Source: Phycisphaerales bacterium (lineage in GTDB: Bacteria > Planctomycetota > Phycisphaerae > Phycisphaerales > UBA1924). Taken from it: a stretch of DNA of 35,383 bases. The notes beneath the pieces were generated by a model. That model searched no databases and was not told the origin of the DNA. It saw only the letters and a list, made by a program, of their open reading frames with translations. Positions 11,814-18,115 of the stretch are shown here, piece by piece. Within the stretch, counting starts at the first letter, position 1; each line of letters begins with the position of its first letter. The stretch is taken from positions 1-35,383 of the forward strand of contig JAFIFZ010000034.1 of NCBI GenBank assembly GCA_020831775.1, given 5' to 3'. A program made the translations under genes and the position numbers.

Positions 11814-12794
11814 ATGGCACAGGCAACTTCTTCCGGCGAGCCCCGCATCGTCGTCATCCGCAAGATACCCGGCGAGCTGCGCGTCCGCGGCGCGAAGGTC
11901 GAGCAAGGGCCGGCGGAATTCTCGCCGCGCGAGCGGGTTTTGGAGCGGATCGCCGGCGCGTCGATCGTGGTGACGATGTTCACCGACCGGGTGGACGGGG
12001 AGTTTCTCGACGCCGCGGGCCCGGGGCTGAAGGGTGTCTGTCAGTTCGCGGTGGGCGTGGACAACATCGATGTGGAGCTCTGCCGCAGCCGGGGCGTGGC
12101 GGTGACCAACACGCCGCACGCGGTGACCGAGGGCACGGCGGACCTCGCGTGGACGCTGATTCTGGCTGTCGCGAGGCGTCTGATCCCCGCCGACCGCTAC
12201 GCGCGGAGCGAGGCGTTCCCCGCGGACGGCCCGCTGAATATGGCCGAGTTCCTGGGCGTCGACCTGACGGGGCGGGCGCTCTTGATCGTCGGCGCCGGGC
12301 GGATCGGCTTTGCGACGGCGATGCGTTCGTTGGGCTGGGGGATGCGCGTGCTGTACACGGCGCGCTCACGCCACTGGGACTTCGAGCTCGCGCCCTTGAG
12401 CGCGCGCCGTGTGGAGCTCGAAGAAGGGCTGGCCGAAGCGGATGTCGTCAGCGTGCACACGCCCCTGACGCCCGAAACCCGCCACCTCATCAACGCCGAG
12501 CGTCTGGCCCTGATGAAGCCCGAGGCGATCCTGATCAACACCTCCCGTGGGCCGGTGATTGACGAGGCGGCGCTGGTCGAGGCGCTCAAGGCCGGCAAGC
12601 TGTGGGGGGCGGGGCTGGATGTGTTCGAGGAGGAGCCGGTCGTGCACCCGGGCCTGATCGGGCTGGAGAATGTGGTGCTGACCCCGCACATCGGCTCGGC
12701 CGCGAGGCGATACCGCGAGGAGATGACGGCGATGGTGGGGCAGAACGCCGAGGCGATCTTGGAAGGTCGCAAGCCGCCGTTCAGCGTCGGTTGA
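11814..12794 (+). CDS. D-isomer-specific 2-hydroxyacid dehydrogenase
   Basis: A 326-residue protein of the normal length for the glyoxylate/hydroxypyruvate reductase type. It interconverts a 2-oxoacid and a D-2-hydroxyacid with NAD(P)H in the cytosol. The N-terminal substrate domain shows GVCQFAVGVDNID and NTPHAVTEGTADLAW; the Rossmann domain has GAGRIG at 160-165. Catalytic residues expected for the family are present: R245 in INTSRGPVID, E274 in DVFEEEP and H292 in LTPHIGSA. The start at 11814 lacks a ribosome site; CATACG lies seven bases upstream. The substrate cannot be fixed from sequence; D-glycerate/hydroxypyruvate is the usual guess. Its last 14 bases overlap the end of the convergent TSCPD gene. 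Confidence 0.92.
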   Translation: MAQATSSGEPRIVVIRKIPGELRVRGAKVEQGPAEFSPRERVLERIAGASIVVTMFTDRVDGEFLDAAGPGLKGVCQFAVGVDNIDVELCRSRGVAVTNTPHAVTEGTADLAWTLILAVARRLIPADRYARSEAFPADGPLNMAEFLGVDLTGRALLIVGAGRIGFATAMRSLGWGMRVLYTARSRHWDFELAPLSARRVELEEGLAEADVVSVHTPLTPETRHLINAERLALMKPEAILINTSRGPVIDEAALVEALKAGKLWGAGLDVFEEEPVVHPGLIGLENVVLTPHIGSAARRYREEMTAMVGQNAEAILEGRKPPFSVG

Positions 12795-13197
12795 TGTTGA
12801 CGCGACCGAACTCGACCTCGAGGTATCGTGCGACATAGTCGACGATGGAGCTGGCCTCGGGGATGTCGGGGTTGTTGGTCGGGCCCATCGGCTCGAAGCG
12901 CATCCCCTTGAACCGGGCGACCGCGTCTTCGACCGAGAGCCCGTACTGCAGCGCGATGCTGAAGGCGCGGCAGAACGCCTGGCACATCCCGCTGATCGCC
13001 GAGCCTTCCTTGGAGATCTTGATGAAGATCTCGCCGGGCGAGCCGTCTTCGTACAGGCCGACGGTGAGGTAGCCCTCGTGGCTGTCGATCTGGAACTTGT
13101 GGGTCAAAGACTCCCGCGTCGCGGGGAGGGCGCGGCGTTGGACGATCATCTTCTGGTCCTTGCCCGGCTGCTTCGGGTTCTGCTCGTGCTGTGCCAT
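12781..13197 (-). CDS. TSCPD-domain protein related to the C-terminus of NrdJ
   Basis: A 138-residue protein. ATG at 13197 is used; a second ATG at 13149 is preceded by AAGGA and is a real alternative. The sequence matches the TSCPD domain found at the end of vitamin-B12-dependent class II ribonucleotide reductase: YLTVGLYEDGSPGEIFIKIS, GSAISGMCQAFCRAFSIALQ, YGLSVEDAVARFKGMRFEP and MGPTNNPDIPEASSIVDYV. No catalytic barrel is present, so it is a stand-alone copy of the accessory domain. Its role is unknown; an adaptor or regulator of ribonucleotide reduction is an inference from homology only. Two cysteines occur in the core (CQAFC). It is convergent and overlapping with the dehydrogenase gene, and divergent from the small secreted protein upstream of secA. 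Confidence 0.8.
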   Translation of the reverse strand: MAQHEQNPKQPGKDQKMIVQRRALPATRESLTHKFQIDSHEGYLTVGLYEDGSPGEIFIKISKEGSAISGMCQAFCRAFSIALQYGLSVEDAVARFKGMRFEPMGPTNNPDIPEASSIVDYVARYLEVEFGRVNINRR

Positions 13198-13307
13198 GCC
13201 GGGGTGACAATATCCGGCGGAGGGTGCGGATATCGGGCCGGTGGGGGCCGTTGAGCCAGAAATGCGGCGTTCGACCCCCGCTGGCGGGGCGTACAGGAGG
13301 GTCGGGT

Positions 13308-13336
13308 TTGCTCCGGGCCTGTTCTGAGCCGATACT
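13308..13336 (+). promoter_or_regulatory. Candidate sigma-70-type promoter of the small gene before secA
   Basis: TTGCTC (13308-13313), a 17-base spacer and GATACT (13331-13336). The predicted transcript start falls at or next to the ATG at 13345, which has no ribosome site, so the message could be leaderless. It may drive the small ORF and secA together. Confidence 0.5.
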
Positions 13337-13344
13337 TCTGTCAG

Positions 13345-13722
13345 ATGGCCGTACACCGGCACGGAGATCAGAAGACGCAGCGGGCCGCGACGAGATCCGT
13401 CGGCGCGGTCGGTGTGGCGTTGGCTCTGGCTCTGCTGATGCACACGCCCACGGCGCTGGCCGGCGCCGCGGCGGCGTCTTCGGCCGGCTCGCCCAAGCTG
13501 GCGGTCAGGGGGCTGCACGAGGCGATCGCCCGTGTGGTCCGCGAGATCGTCCGCCCCGGTCGAGAGGTCATCGAGCGTTGCCCGATGGCGGGCGCCCCGG
13601 CCCCGGCCCTCTGCGGTTCTGAGCGGTCGCGTCTTGCGTCGCTTCGGTTGGCCCACGCCCCGGCGCTGCGGACTGTCGCGTCGCAGGGGTTGATCGGGCT
13701 GCCCCCGCCCTTGTTTGCATGA
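13345..13722 (+). CDS. Small secreted protein upstream of secA; candidate secretion monitor
   Basis: A 125-residue protein with no recognised family. Residues 1-20 are basic (HRHGDQKTQRAATR), 21-40 are a strong hydrophobic export signal (AVGVALALALLMHTPTALAG), then an Ala/Ser-rich linker and an amphipathic helix (LHEAIARVVREIVRPGREV). The end is Gly/Pro-rich: RTVASQGLIGLPPPLFA. It lies 187 bases before secA on the same strand, with a strong hairpin between them. In Escherichia coli the exported SecM peptide, encoded just upstream of secA, stalls the ribosome near its C-terminus (QGIRAGP) and controls secA translation. Position, export signal and a Pro-rich C-terminus fit such a role here, but homology to SecM cannot be claimed. 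That it is a real gene rests on promoter and position. Confidence 0.55.
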   Translation: MAVHRHGDQKTQRAATRSVGAVGVALALALLMHTPTALAGAAAASSAGSPKLAVRGLHEAIARVVREIVRPGREVIERCPMAGAPAPALCGSERSRLASLRLAHAPALRTVASQGLIGLPPPLFA

Positions 13723-13792
13723 AGCGGCGTTGACTGGCCCGCGGCGCTCGCGATCTTGCGAGGCGTGACGCGGACGGTTGTTCAACCCCTCC

Positions 13793-13827
13793 CCGGGGAC
13801 GGCGTGCGCGCACGCCGCTCGCCCCGG
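13793..13827 (+). promoter_or_regulatory. Strong hairpin between the small secreted ORF and secA
   Basis: CCGGGG (13793-13798) pairs with CCCCGG (13822-13827), and CGGCGTG (13800-13806) pairs with CACGCCG (13811-13817) around a CGCG loop. No T-run follows, so it is unlikely to be a plain terminator. It lies 83 bases before the secA start and could take part in translational control or partial attenuation. Confidence 0.5.
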
Positions 13828-13909
13828 CGTGCCCTGAGGCGTTACCGCCCCGGGCCCTGCAAGCAGCGACACACACCGAAGACGGTGGATCCAAGAAACG
13901 GTGACCCCC

Positions 13910-16900
13910 ATGGCCAACGAAGGCATTCCGCTGATCGGCCCTCTCCTGTACAAGCTGATCGGCTCGCGTAACGAGCGTTTCGTCAAGAAGTACACCGCCC
14001 GCGTCGAGGCGATCAACGAGCTTGAGCCCAAGATCCGCGAGATGAGCGACCAGCAGCTCCGCGAGATGATCGTCAAGTTCCGCGAGGAGCACGACAAGGG
14101 CTCGGGCCCCGAAGACCTGATGATCGAGGCGTTCGCCGTCGCCCGCGAGGCGATGGACCGCCATGTCGGCATCCGGTCGATCTTCAACCCCGAGCACAAG
14201 TTCGACCCCAAAACGCTGCCCGAGTCGCTCCGGGAGCTGTACGCCAGGACGAAGGAGCGGATGGACGAGGCCCCGGTCTATGTGCCGCGGACCTGGATGC
14301 TCCAGAACCAACACGACCAGCGCCCCGAGAACGCGCTGCCCGACGAGGACGACCGCTTCCTGGGCTCGGCCGACATCATCCGGGGCTGGCAGTATGTCGA
14401 GATCCCGCTGGAGCTCTACGAGGCGGTCCGCGAGCTCTACCCCGAGAGCCGCCCGCCCTTCCGCTCGCGCCCGTTCGATGTGCAGCTGATCGGCGGCATG
14501 GTGCTGGCCGGCGGCAAGATCTCCGAGATGAAGACCGGCGAGGGCAAGACGATCGTCGGCCCGCTGGCCGCCTACCTGGCGGCGTGCGTGCGGATGAAGG
14601 TGCATGTCGTCACGGTGAACGACTACCTCGTGCAGCGCGACCGGGACTGGACCTTCCCCTTCTTCCACGGGCTGGGCCTGACGGTCGCGGCGATCCACCC
14701 CCAGCATGTCCAGCCCGAGGACATCAAGCGGCACATGTACCGCTGCGACATCGTCTACGGGACGACCGCCGAGTTCGGCTTCGACTTCCTGCGCGACAAC
14801 ATGAAGCGCCTGGCCGACCAGCAGGTGCAGCGCCGGCGCGACTATGCGATCGTCGACGAGGTGGACTCGATCCTCATCGACGAGGCCCGTACGCCGCTGA
14901 TCATCTCGGGCCTTGCACGCGAGGACAAGCCCCGGTACGACTTCGCCGACCAGCTCGCCCGCCACCTTGTCGAAAAGCAGAAGCCCTGGGCCGCGGCCGA
15001 CAAGAAGGTCCGGGCCTGCGTCGAGACGATCAAGGGTCTTGAGGGCGATATCCGCCAGGCCAAGGACAAGGGCAAGGTGCCCGAACTCCAGGCGAGGCTC
15101 AAGGACGAGAAGGCGAAGCTGATCGAGCTGGAGCGGGATCGCGACCAGTACACCCAGTACTACGAGGTCCACGACGACCGCAAGAACGCCTACCTCACCC
15201 ACGAGGGCACCGCCGAAGCGCAGCGCAAGGCCGGCCTCGGCTCGTTTTATGTAGATGAGAACACCGACATCCCGCACCTGCTCCAGCAGGCGGTGCGTGC
15301 GCACACGGTGTACCAGCTCGATCGCGACTATGTCGTGATGAACCTGCCCGACCAGTTCTCAGGCAGGCCGAGTCCGAGCATCGTGATCGTCGACACCAAC
15401 ACCGGGCGTCCGATGGTCGGGCGCCAGTGGTCCGACGGGCTGCACCAGGCGATCGAGTCGAAGGAGGGCGTCCCCATCAAGGAGGAGACGCAGACCATCG
15501 CCTCGATCACCATCCAGAACTTCTTCAAGATGTACCGCAAGCTCGCGGGCATGACGGGCACCGCCGACACCGAGGCCCAGGAGTTCCACGACATCTACGG
15601 GCTCGATGTCGTCTCGATCCCCACCAACAAGGCCGTCGTCAGGCGCGACTACCCCGACATGGTCTACCTCCGCGCCAAGGACAAGTGGGAGCAGATCGTC
15701 GACGAGATCAAGACCTTCCACGATGTCGGCAGGCCCATCCTCGTCGGCACCACCAGCGTCGCCAAGTCAGAGATGCTCAGCCAGATGCTCACGCAGAAGC
15801 ACGGTGTCAAGCACGAGGTCCTCAACGCCAAGCAGCACGAGCGCGAGGGCCAGATGATCACCGACGCCGGCCAGCTCGGCGCCGTCATGATCGCGACCAA
15901 CATGGCCGGCCGCGGCACGGACATCAAGCTCGGCTCGTTCACCCGCGAGCAGCTCCTGGAGCACTGGTTGCGCCGGGGCATCGCCCCGCGCGGCGTCACG
16001 ACCGAAGCCTCCGAGGAAGAGCTCCGCAGCGCGATCTACCGCAAGATCGCCCCGAATGTCATCCCCGACATGCGCAAGCGCGAGGCCGAGGAGATGGACC
16101 CCGCCCAGCTCCAGCGCACGATGCTGGAGCACTGGGCCCGCGAGGCGACCTACCTCTCAGACAAGGCCATCACATCGATGAGCGACGACGAGCTCCGCGA
16201 GGCGATCAGCGAGACGGGGCGCATGCTCATCCACGACATCCGCTGGTTCAGCAACATCGAGGATCTCGGCGGCCTGCATGTCATCGGCACCGAACGCCAC
16301 GAGGCCAGGCGCATCGACAACCAGCTCCGCGGACGCTCCGGCCGCCAGGGCGATAAGGGCTCCAGCCGCTTCTATGTCTCGCTCGAAGACGAGCTGATGC
16401 AGCGTTTCGGCGGCGAGACGATGATGAAGATCCTCCCCCGCCTGGGCCTGAAAGAGGGCGACTCGATCGAGAGCCCCATGCTCTCAAAGAGGATCGAGGC
16501 CGCCCAGAAGAAGATCGAAGAGCACATGTTCCACAGCCGCAAGCAGCTGCTGGAGTACGACGAGATCCGCGAGCACCAGCGCCAGCACTTCTACGGGACG
16601 CGCCAGCGCGTGCTCGAGGGGCGCGATGTCCGCGGGCTGATCTTCGATTTCGTCGAGGAGTCCGTCAGCGAGGCCGTCGACGAGTACCTCGACCCGATGT
16701 TCCCCGCCGAGCGGGCCGCCGAGTACGCCAAGAATGTGCTCGACTGCTCGATCCTGCCCGAGAGGCTCAAGGGCAAGGACCTCGGCGAGATGGAGCAGGC
16801 CATCCGCAAGGACGCCCGCGACGACGCACGCCAGAACATCGACATCACCCTCGGCGAGTATGTCCCCATCGAGGGCTCGGAGATCTCCGTTGACTTCGAC

Positions 16901-18115
16901 TCGGCGGGGCTGGCCAACTGGGCCCGCAACCGTTACGGCGTCGAGATCGACCCCTCAGAGCTCCGCACCGGCGGGCCCGAGGAGCGCCGCCATCTCTTCA
17001 CCACGCTCTGCGAGGCCGCCGACCAGCGCATCGAAGAGGCCGAACTCTCGGGCCTGAGCGAGTTCCTCCAGCCCGACTACGGCGTGCACCAGCTCGTCGC
17101 GTGGGCGGAGCGCAAGTTCGGCTTCAAGATCCCGCCCGAGCGCATCAAGGAGGCGATCGAGGACGACGACAAGACGCCCGTCGATGTCGTCATGAACGAG
17201 GCCGAGACCCTCTACCGCAAGCGCGAGATCGAGTACCCCGTCGACTACGCCATGGAGCTCACCATGGCCCTGATGCGTCAGTCTCCGGCCGACGCGGCCC
17301 AGGGCCTGTGCGACTGGGCCAGGACCCGCTTCGGCTACCAGATGGACGCCGAGAAGCTCAAGACCACGCCGCCGGCCAAGGTCCGCGAGCAGCTCCTCGA
17401 GTCCTCGCGGCGGTTCGTCGAGGAAAACCGCATCGAGCAGGAGATCAACGACGCCCTCGCCTGCAAGGACGACGAAGAACTCGACCGCCACCTCAAGGAC
17501 CGCTTCGGCGTCGGCATCACCGACCGCATGCGCTGGCTGGAGCCCGACCGTCGTGAGGACGCGATCCGCGCCCGCGTCGAGTCCATCCTCCGCGCCGAGC
17601 TGCTAGAGCTCGAGCGGGCGATCCTGCTGGAGACCTTCGACAACACCTGGCGTGAGCACCTCTACGAGATGGACCAGCTCAACGACTCGATCCGCTTCCG
17701 CGCCTTCAGCCAGCAGGACCCGCGCATCGCCTTCAAGAAGGAGGGCTCGCGCATCTTCACCGAGATGCTCTCGACCGTCCGCGGACGCGTCACCGATGTC
17801 GTCTTCAAGGCCCGCATCAGCCCCGCCGCGATGATCCAGCAGCAGATGCAGCAGCGTCAGGCCCAGGAGCAGGCCCGGGCCCAGGCCGAGGCGAGGGCCG
17901 GCCAGCAGCGGCAGATGCCCGCCTCGGGCGCCGGCTCGGCCCCACTGGGCGGCAACATCGCAGGCCCCGGCCTGCCAGAGCATGGCCCGTCCCCCGTGAT
18001 GCCCGAGAAGGACGGGCGCAAGGCCGAGGAAGAAAAGCCCCTCACCCCCGAGGAGCAGCTCGAAGCGGCCAAAGCCGCACGCGAGGCCGACCGGGCCAAG
18101 TCACGCAAGCGCTGA
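13910..18115 (+). CDS. secA: Preprotein translocase ATPase SecA, extended form
   Basis: A 1,401-residue motor ATPase that drives exported proteins through SecYEG; E. coli SecA has 901. ATG at 13910 with GGTGA upstream is preferred to GTG at 13901. Landmarks are Walker A MKTGEGKT (207-214), DEVD (316-319), the NBD2 motif NMAGRGTDIKLG (from N664), IGTERHEARR (~792) and the end of the helical scaffold, DQLNDSIRFRAFSQQDPR. Extra material: a charged coiled-coil insertion (~360-415), about 115 residues between NMAGRGTD and IGTERH where E. coli has about 45, and a greatly enlarged wing region (about 1000-1230) with repeated L-x2-W-A units. The tail is Gln/Ala-rich, then charged, ending SRKR; the usual C-terminal zinc motif (CxCxSG...CH) is absent. 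It follows the small secreted ORF and ends in a terminator at 18167. Confidence 0.97.
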   Translation: MANEGIPLIGPLLYKLIGSRNERFVKKYTARVEAINELEPKIREMSDQQLREMIVKFREEHDKGSGPEDLMIEAFAVAREAMDRHVGIRSIFNPEHKFDPKTLPESLRELYARTKERMDEAPVYVPRTWMLQNQHDQRPENALPDEDDRFLGSADIIRGWQYVEIPLELYEAVRELYPESRPPFRSRPFDVQLIGGMVLAGGKISEMKTGEGKTIVGPLAAYLAACVRMKVHVVTVNDYLVQRDRDWTFPFFHGLGLTVAAIHPQHVQPEDIKRHMYRCDIVYGTTAEFGFDFLRDNMKRLADQQVQRRRDYAIVDEVDSILIDEARTPLIISGLAREDKPRYDFADQLARHLVEKQKPWAAADKKVRACVETIKGLEGDIRQAKDKGKVPELQARLKDEKAKLIELERDRDQYTQYYEVHDDRKNAYLTHEGTAEAQRKAGLGSFYVDENTDIPHLLQQAVRAHTVYQLDRDYVVMNLPDQFSGRPSPSIVIVDTNTGRPMVGRQWSDGLHQAIESKEGVPIKEETQTIASITIQNFFKMYRKLAGMTGTADTEAQEFHDIYGLDVVSIPTNKAVVRRDYPDMVYLRAKDKWEQIVDEIKTFHDVGRPILVGTTSVAKSEMLSQMLTQKHGVKHEVLNAKQHEREGQMITDAGQLGAVMIATNMAGRGTDIKLGSFTREQLLEHWLRRGIAPRGVTTEASEEELRSAIYRKIAPNVIPDMRKREAEEMDPAQLQRTMLEHWAREATYLSDKAITSMSDDELREAISETGRMLIHDIRWFSNIEDLGGLHVIGTERHEARRIDNQLRGRSGRQGDKGSSRFYVSLEDELMQRFGGETMMKILPRLGLKEGDSIESPMLSKRIEAAQKKIEEHMFHSRKQLLEYDEIREHQRQHFYGTRQRVLEGRDVRGLIFDFVEESVSEAVDEYLDPMFPAERAAEYAKNVLDCSILPERLKGKDLGEMEQAIRKDARDDARQNIDITLGEYVPIEGSEISVDFDSAGLANWARNRYGVEIDPSELRTGGPEERRHLFTTLCEAADQRIEEAELSGLSEFLQPDYGVHQLVAWAERKFGFKIPPERIKEAIEDDDKTPVDVVMNEAETLYRKREIEYPVDYAMELTMALMRQSPADAAQGLCDWARTRFGYQMDAEKLKTTPPAKVREQLLESSRRFVEENRIEQEINDALACKDDEELDRHLKDRFGVGITDRMRWLEPDRREDAIRARVESILRAELLELERAILLETFDNTWREHLYEMDQLNDSIRFRAFSQQDPRIAFKKEGSRIFTEMLSTVRGRVTDVVFKARISPAAMIQQQMQQRQAQEQARAQAEARAGQQRQMPASGAGSAPLGGNIAGPGLPEHGPSPVMPEKDGRKAEEEKPLTPEEQLEAAKAAREADRAKSRKR

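Follow-up and report, generated by a model that had tools for sequence, protein, structure and literature searches.

The window, by which we mean the whole 35,383-nucleotide stretch analysed, is a contig of a 3.55-Mb Phycisphaerales bacterium genome in 84 contigs. Its forward strand carries secA at 13910-18115, which encodes 1401 amino acids from an ATG at 13910 and scores above the NCBIfam cut-offs for PRK12904 and TIGR00963; there is an in-frame GTG at 13901, and the SecA proteins of relatives align from the ATG at 13910. The SecA of REET01000190.1 ('MAG: Phycisphaerales bacterium isolate PLM2.Bin57') matches that of the window at 96%. Directly upstream on the same strand lies a 125-codon frame with an ATG start (13345-13722), our predicted arrest-peptide gene, whose C-terminus, RTVASQGLIGLPPPLFA, reads GLPPPLFA before the stop codon; a 187-nt spacer (13723-13909, forward strand) holding a hairpin at 13793-13827 separates it from secA. 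A sequence-only reading of this DNA had taken the frame, with its export-signal-like N-terminus, for a SecM-like secretion monitor, and we confirmed the frame at the position that it gave. On the other side, a promoter-like sequence occupies 13308-13336 of the forward strand and, further upstream, a stand-alone gene whose product resembles the C-terminal region of B12-dependent ribonucleotide reductase lies on the reverse strand at 12781-13200; because this gene is divergent from the frame, the frame probably has no other gene ahead of it on its transcript. Searched at gathering thresholds, the window gave only a tRNA from Rfam.

The genome holds three separate SecA-DEAD genes (G000:C64:14378-15589, G000:C47:48221-49399 and G000:C83:19880-21073), of which the window's SecA is long (1401 residues) and the other two lie in 786- and 807-codon frames. 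At these two other SecA-like loci, none of the 13 and none of the 14 sense-strand frames of at least 60 codons end in PPP. A sister genome, G001, has the same small frame with 95% protein identity. The 22 of 378 bases that differ fall 6, 1 and 15 on codon positions one, two and three (15 synonymous and 6 non-synonymous codons), as expected of a real gene; in nucleotide identity to G001, the frame (94.2%) stands between the spacer (88.1% over 13723-13890) and the start of secA (97.0% over 300 bases). The small protein has no Pfam family match (E up to 1) and no NCBIfam family match, and searching 61 genomes with all 125 residues returned, at E < 0.001, only its own copy, that of G001 (95%) and one in G019 (38%, E 4e-4), a sign of how fast the body of the protein diverges.

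We assembled 137 secA loci, 57 from the window's own genome and genomes of the same family and order and 80 others; leaving out three unusable loci (L080, L126 and L149) and merging 16 duplicates gave 118 distinct regions, 56 and 62 from the two genome sets, with the window's own included. A frame was counted if it had at least 60 codons, ended between -450 and +30 of the secA start and had PPP in its last 15 residues. Such a frame precedes secA in 115 of the 118 regions (114 of 117 without the window), and LPPP is present in 102 of the 118, whereas the reverse strands of these regions gave 7 with PPP and none with LPPP. PPP is absent from three regions: that of G030, which has a frame with GLAPPCQTRT, that of G023 (VSPPAVA) and L148, which has about 320 nt of upstream sequence. 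The same small frame is thereby found in relatives with its C-terminus conserved and its body variable, which was the check that the sequence-only reading had itself proposed.

Aligned on PPP (n = 115), the conserved columns across the family read L-L-[DNSA]-L-P-P-P. Leucine occupies position -4 in 63 frames, -3 in 55 and -1 in 102 (the remaining 13 of 115 have PPP without a preceding Leu), and position -2 is D, N, S or A in 50, 21, 16 and 16 frames, respectively. Column information is 0.14-0.21 bits from -16 to -10 and reaches 1.3, 1.4, 2.2 and 2.7 bits at -4, -3, -2 and -1; between PPP and the stop codon lie 2-3 residues in 95 of 115 frames. Polyproline, which the sequence-only reading had named as a known stalling sequence, is the conserved part of the family and the place at which a published member of the class stalls. 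The likeness that had been drawn from a Gln-Gly to the QGIRAGP of SecM is no feature of the family, the conserved core being LL[DNSA]LPPP. In the window, the predicted L-P-P-P arrest motif is encoded at 13699-13710 on the forward strand (residues 119-122 of 125), with the register taken from published toeprints.

Two observations stand beside this survey. Near the end of the frame, LAPP replaces LPPP in L049 (from G030), L193 and L201, and these frames are possibly intermediate between LPPP and RAPP arrest codes. L120 (QWIH01000027.1) is titled 'Leptolyngbya sp. PLA1', a cyanobacterial name, yet its SecA is 64% identical to the window's and it has an LPPP frame 5' of secA; it is probably a mislabelled Planctomycetota MAG.

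The N-terminus of the window frame consists, by hydropathy, of a basic N-region followed by the hydrophobic core of a signal sequence, AVGVALALALLM (13405-13440, forward strand; mean hydropathy 2.7). A 12-residue core with hydropathy above 2.0 is present in 113 of 115 regions. From the core to the second proline of PPP there are 88 residues in the window; the median distance is 84, and 106 of 115 regions fall in the range of 70-100 residues.

The promoter-like sequence comprises a -35-like TTGCTC (13308-13313) and a -10-like GATACT (13331-13336) separated by N17, with 8 nt between GATACT and the ATG. That the frame has a promoter-like sequence of its own was part of the sequence-only reading, and it recurs among relatives: the two-box pattern TTGNNN-N15..19-[GTC]ATA[ACG]T lies 5' of the frame in 50 of 113 regions, the window included, and the other 63 have no fit (two of the 115 regions were left out for short upstream sequence). 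Controls gave a mean of 0.33 and a maximum of 3 in resampled sequence, and no hit in 113 regions either within secA or within the small gene; here, as for the spacer hairpins and the GLYGP frames below, shuffled sequences are first-order Markov resamplings. The box spacing is 17 in 45 of the 50, the commonest -35-like boxes are TTGCCC (14), TTGCTC (13) and TTGCTT (8), and GATACT is the -10-like box in 42 of 50, so the recurring promoter can be summarised as TTGCYY-N17-GATACT. This pattern, which misses weaker boxes, supersedes a less strict count of -10 boxes, which gave 84 of 113 regions and, within secA, 11 of 113. TTGCTC-N14..20-GATACTT occurs once in the window's own genome, at the 13308-13336 site, and GATACTT-N4..10-ATG occurs five times and its reversed pattern twice; GATACT alone is found in the window about as often as chance predicts (4 against 3.56 expected). 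A scan for the strict sigma-70 consensus returned no promoters and did not report the boxes at 13308-13336.

Transcription usually begins 6-8 nt 3' of a -10 box, so that the 8-nt gap would place the 5' end of the mRNA on the ATG or only a few bases from it; the window's mRNA is probably leaderless or nearly so. An in-frame ATG follows the -10 box in 39 of the 50 regions at a median distance of 11 nt (quartiles 8.5 and 14), a distance made uncertain by the rule that began each small gene at the first ATG in the vicinity of the core (GTG or TTG is all that some loci offer), and a Shine-Dalgarno-like word precedes 4 of 35 such starts; most of these other regions would likewise have at most a very short leader. 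The recurring promoter was not found described in searchable papers, and the word 'leaderless' is absent from the text of PMC10987492.

The spacer between the small gene and secA has a median length of 156 nt (70-318) in the 115 regions and favours C over G (38.1% against 28.3%), the corresponding values being 36.1% and 35.3% for the uORF and 33.1% and 32.5% for secA. Two words, CCCGGCGT and CGGCGTGC, are enriched, with each found in 11 spacers against about 1.2 expected. The strong hairpin that the sequence-only reading had noted exists at 13793-13827, and 34 of its 35 bases are kept in G001, but it is no stronger than shuffled sequence: 13788-13832 folds at -24.4 kcal/mol, a stability reached by 44 of 200 shuffles (z -0.75), and we rejected it as a regulatory element. 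Over the 115 spacers, the best local hairpin has a mean z of -1.06 against resampled sequence, with 15% below -2 and the window at -0.90, and no hairpin sequence or position is common across genera among the spacers listed.

The window feature matches an arrest-peptide class that is already published, uA_LPPP, and is not a new class. Fujiwara et al. 2024 (PMC10987492) describe 52 secA uORFs with XPPP, 45 of them LPPP, with hosts in the Planctomycetota orders Phycisphaerales, UBA1161 and WQYP01 (GTDB); the idea that no such monitor had been described for this phylum is superseded by that work. One member arrested B. subtilis ribosomes fully in vitro (fAP 1), the arrest on these ribosomes was lowered by L and P mutations, and toeprints placed the stall with the second proline in the P site. 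The same member gave a TAI of 22.4 in B. subtilis and 1.59 in E. coli in vivo, and this weak E. coli arrest indicates that polyproline alone is insufficient there; release by export is the model given for such arrest peptides (PMC10987492). From sequence and published counterparts, we consider it very probable that the frame at 13345-13722 is a self-arresting secretion monitor of the uA_LPPP class that heads a common transcript with secA, the common transcript being suggested by the layout.

Other readings of the frame fit less well. Long chance frames are common in this GC-rich DNA (48 open reading frames of at least 60 residues overlap 8 kb), yet the codon-position pattern, the promoter and 115 of 118 regions against 7 in the reverse-strand control leave a spurious frame with practically no credibility. 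A small exported protein that does its work once secreted and not through arrest, with PPP as a protein-binding or structural tail, would account for both the signal-like sequence and the conserved tail, and the lack of a Pfam or NCBIfam match means that homology does not exclude a product function; it is nonetheless improbable, given that hardly any of the mature body is conserved whereas the last seven to eight residues are fixed and mostly end 2-3 residues from the stop, that the gene lies 5' of secA in nearly every region, and that the published class member stalls ribosomes (PMC10987492). Descent from SecM would explain why position before secA and architecture are both the same, but we regard it as very improbable because the conserved core is LL[DNSA]LPPP rather than the GIRAGP end of SecM (PMC11669330) and no Pfam match appears at E up to 1. 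What stands of the proposed SecM-like monitor is a signal-bearing, fast-diverging peptide in which the C-terminus alone is conserved; the likeness to SecM itself, the novelty for the phylum and the special hairpin do not stand.

In the mechanism that we favour for the uA_LPPP peptide, the frame's own promoter would give a leaderless or nearly leaderless mRNA, and peptide synthesis would start at or near the 5' end. The signal sequence would then leave the ribosome and presumably engage Sec during synthesis of the C-terminus; at a measured 88 residues from the stall codon, the core is far enough away to clear the exit tunnel. The stall register, L-P-P|P, would be that of R-A-P|P, in which the A-site proline is held and cannot attack (PMC10951233), and we infer that LPPP arrest uses the same chemistry as RAPP, with which the LAPP variants are compatible. 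Active export would pull the nascent chain and free the ribosome quickly, whereas slow export would leave it parked five codons short of the stop, and secA, just downstream, would be translated or transcribed more.

How the stall might act on secA was addressed by computing base-pair probabilities in the 115 regions for the free and the stalled state. Mean pairing of the Shine-Dalgarno sequence was 0.568 free and 0.550 stalled (p 0.29), and that of the initiation region went from 0.505 to 0.486 (p 0.057); shuffling the spacers raised the pairing of the initiation region from 0.505 to 0.533 (p 1e-5), which speaks against selected occlusion. In the window itself, Shine-Dalgarno pairing changes in the wrong direction for unmasking (0.40 free, 0.65 stalled). 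A weak positive is that the initiation region pairs with sequence within or 5' of the stall footprint more than it does when the spacers are shuffled (0.238 against 0.188, p 2.5e-4). Unmasking of the Shine-Dalgarno sequence by a stalled ribosome had no clear folding support across the 115 regions and was rejected as a demonstrated mechanism, though it may still operate. The same arrest could have another output, in which the stalled ribosome shields the C-rich spacer from Rho or acts through transcription-translation coupling. In tnaC, a stalled ribosome keeps Rho off, and the length of the spacers and their excess of C over G led us to keep Rho blocking as a rival, along with the want of clear support for unmasking; against it, intergenic DNA in these genomes may be C-rich in general, and the excess of partners around the stall footprint leaves room for unmasking. 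We hold this output as a tentative possibility, somewhat on the doubtful side; it is a variant of the secretion-monitor reading, so that the chances of the two are not exclusive.

The class and phylum were sampled at 22 loci from the families labelled here f1, f9 and f11, 27 from other families of the same class and 26 from other classes. PPP-ending frames lie 5' of secA in 3 of 3 loci of f1, 10 of 10 of f11 and 6 of 9 of f9 (one without a core above 1.8), and in 1 of 4 of f20 (no core above 1.8); the other families of the class gave 0 of 23 and the other classes 0 of 26, the secA starts being less certain in distant loci.

Families f8 and f19, which belong to another order, have a secA-upstream frame with a different end, [RH]-[ILV]-G-G-L-[YH]-G-P-stop. 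GGLYGP- or GGLHGP-stop was first noticed by eye in 6 loci and then sought in 62 loci of that order (75 of its 81 genomes have a SecA match; L343, with little upstream sequence, was taken out of an initial 63 loci). The loose motif was found in 13 of 16 loci of f8 and 19 of 22 of f19, and exact GGL[YH]GP in 10 of 16 (L237, L253, L260, L344-L347, L349, L352 and L354) and 17 of 22; L357 (G215, GGLHGP), outside the script's bound and added by eye, raises the f19 counts to 20 and 18 (L246, L251, L255, L291, L321, L323, L325-L330, L341, L342 and L356-L359) and brings the totals to 33 and 28 of 38. Without the 6 discovery loci (n = 32), 26 loose and 21 exact matches remain, or 27 and 22 with L357. 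The motif is absent from all 24 loci of the other families of that order (f17, f21, f22, f69 and f71), and 5 of 407 reverse-strand frames end in GP. The GGL[YH]GP-stop string occurs 12 times in 12 genomes, 11 times before secA by coordinates and not at all in G207; the single occurrence elsewhere, in G125, is antisense to a 1154-codon frame, and the pattern read backwards occurs once in the 12 genomes. At five loci of f17 (L278, L279, L281, L282 and L283), a third kind of frame before secA was seen by eye, with the end SAGxLAL..GMAVVxLAxWLxxMRxxG.

The 13 f8 hits have two hydrophobic segments each, except for one with three, and in all 13 one segment ends 36-45 and one 85-94 residues from the end of the frame; all 19 f19 hits have a segment ending 73-84 residues from the end, and 8 have further ones. 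Two or more segments at near-fixed distances (about 89 and 41 residues) suggest that what the f8 peptides monitor may be insertion into the membrane and not export. In 15 of 32 GLYGP frames, an in-frame ATG follows a -10-like box at 5-14 nt, against 0.06 in resampled sequence. We found no description of a GLYGP-stop peptide among the matches listed from the searchable papers, none of which, in any year, mentions LYGP together with arrest peptides or SecM, and 'LYGP' does not appear in the main text of PMC10987492.

Taken across orders, we think it likely that in part of the class a leaderless secA-upstream monitor has exchanged its arrest code, with LPPP in the window's order and two further families and [RH]-[ILV]-G-G-L-[YH]-G-P-stop in two families of another order; the patterns suggest that monitors change arrest code while position and length stay. 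If so, GLYGP-stop would make up a new class of arrest peptide, in which the ribosome halts at Gly-Pro, as on SecM, or else on the stop codon, with proline in the P site. The near-constant distance from signal to stall together with interchangeable codes would then be a natural experiment in arrest-peptide evolution and would open the question of where in such a peptide selection acts. The window supports the published class in one more lineage, to which our analysis adds the recurring promoter, the near-constant signal-to-stall distance and the finding of no sign of a common hairpin, the last of which questions the E. coli SecM model for secA control here.

Known arrest peptides whose last residue before the stop is proline share this feature with the GLYGP-stop frames but have another motif and come from another phylum; they have been shown to stall when the stop codon occupies the A site, as the GLYGP frames may do. 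The RAPP-type peptides (ApdA, ApdP and the RQH family) resemble the window's in having proline in both the P and A sites, which puts LPPP in the RAPP register, but the Arg critical in RAPP is replaced by Leu and, in most uA_LPPP members, the Ala by Pro; the window has LPPP and no R/Q/H-A-P-P-like motif, and LAPP occurs only in a few relatives. E. coli SecM is likewise encoded by an exported-peptide gene 5' of secA, with arrest near the C-terminus, but its arrest motif is unrelated, the window's C-terminus having no GIRAGP, and the promoter close to the start codon and the long spacer to secA set the present genes apart. The closest likeness is to uA_LPPP itself: the window's frame is a secA uORF of unknown function directly upstream on the same strand in the Planctomycetota, with LPPP/XPPP within the last 15 residues (here at 119-122 of 125), an N-terminal signal (here a hydropathy core and basic N-region), a spacer of more than 30 residues from signal to arrest (here 88), and a C-terminus conserved among homologues beside a variable body.
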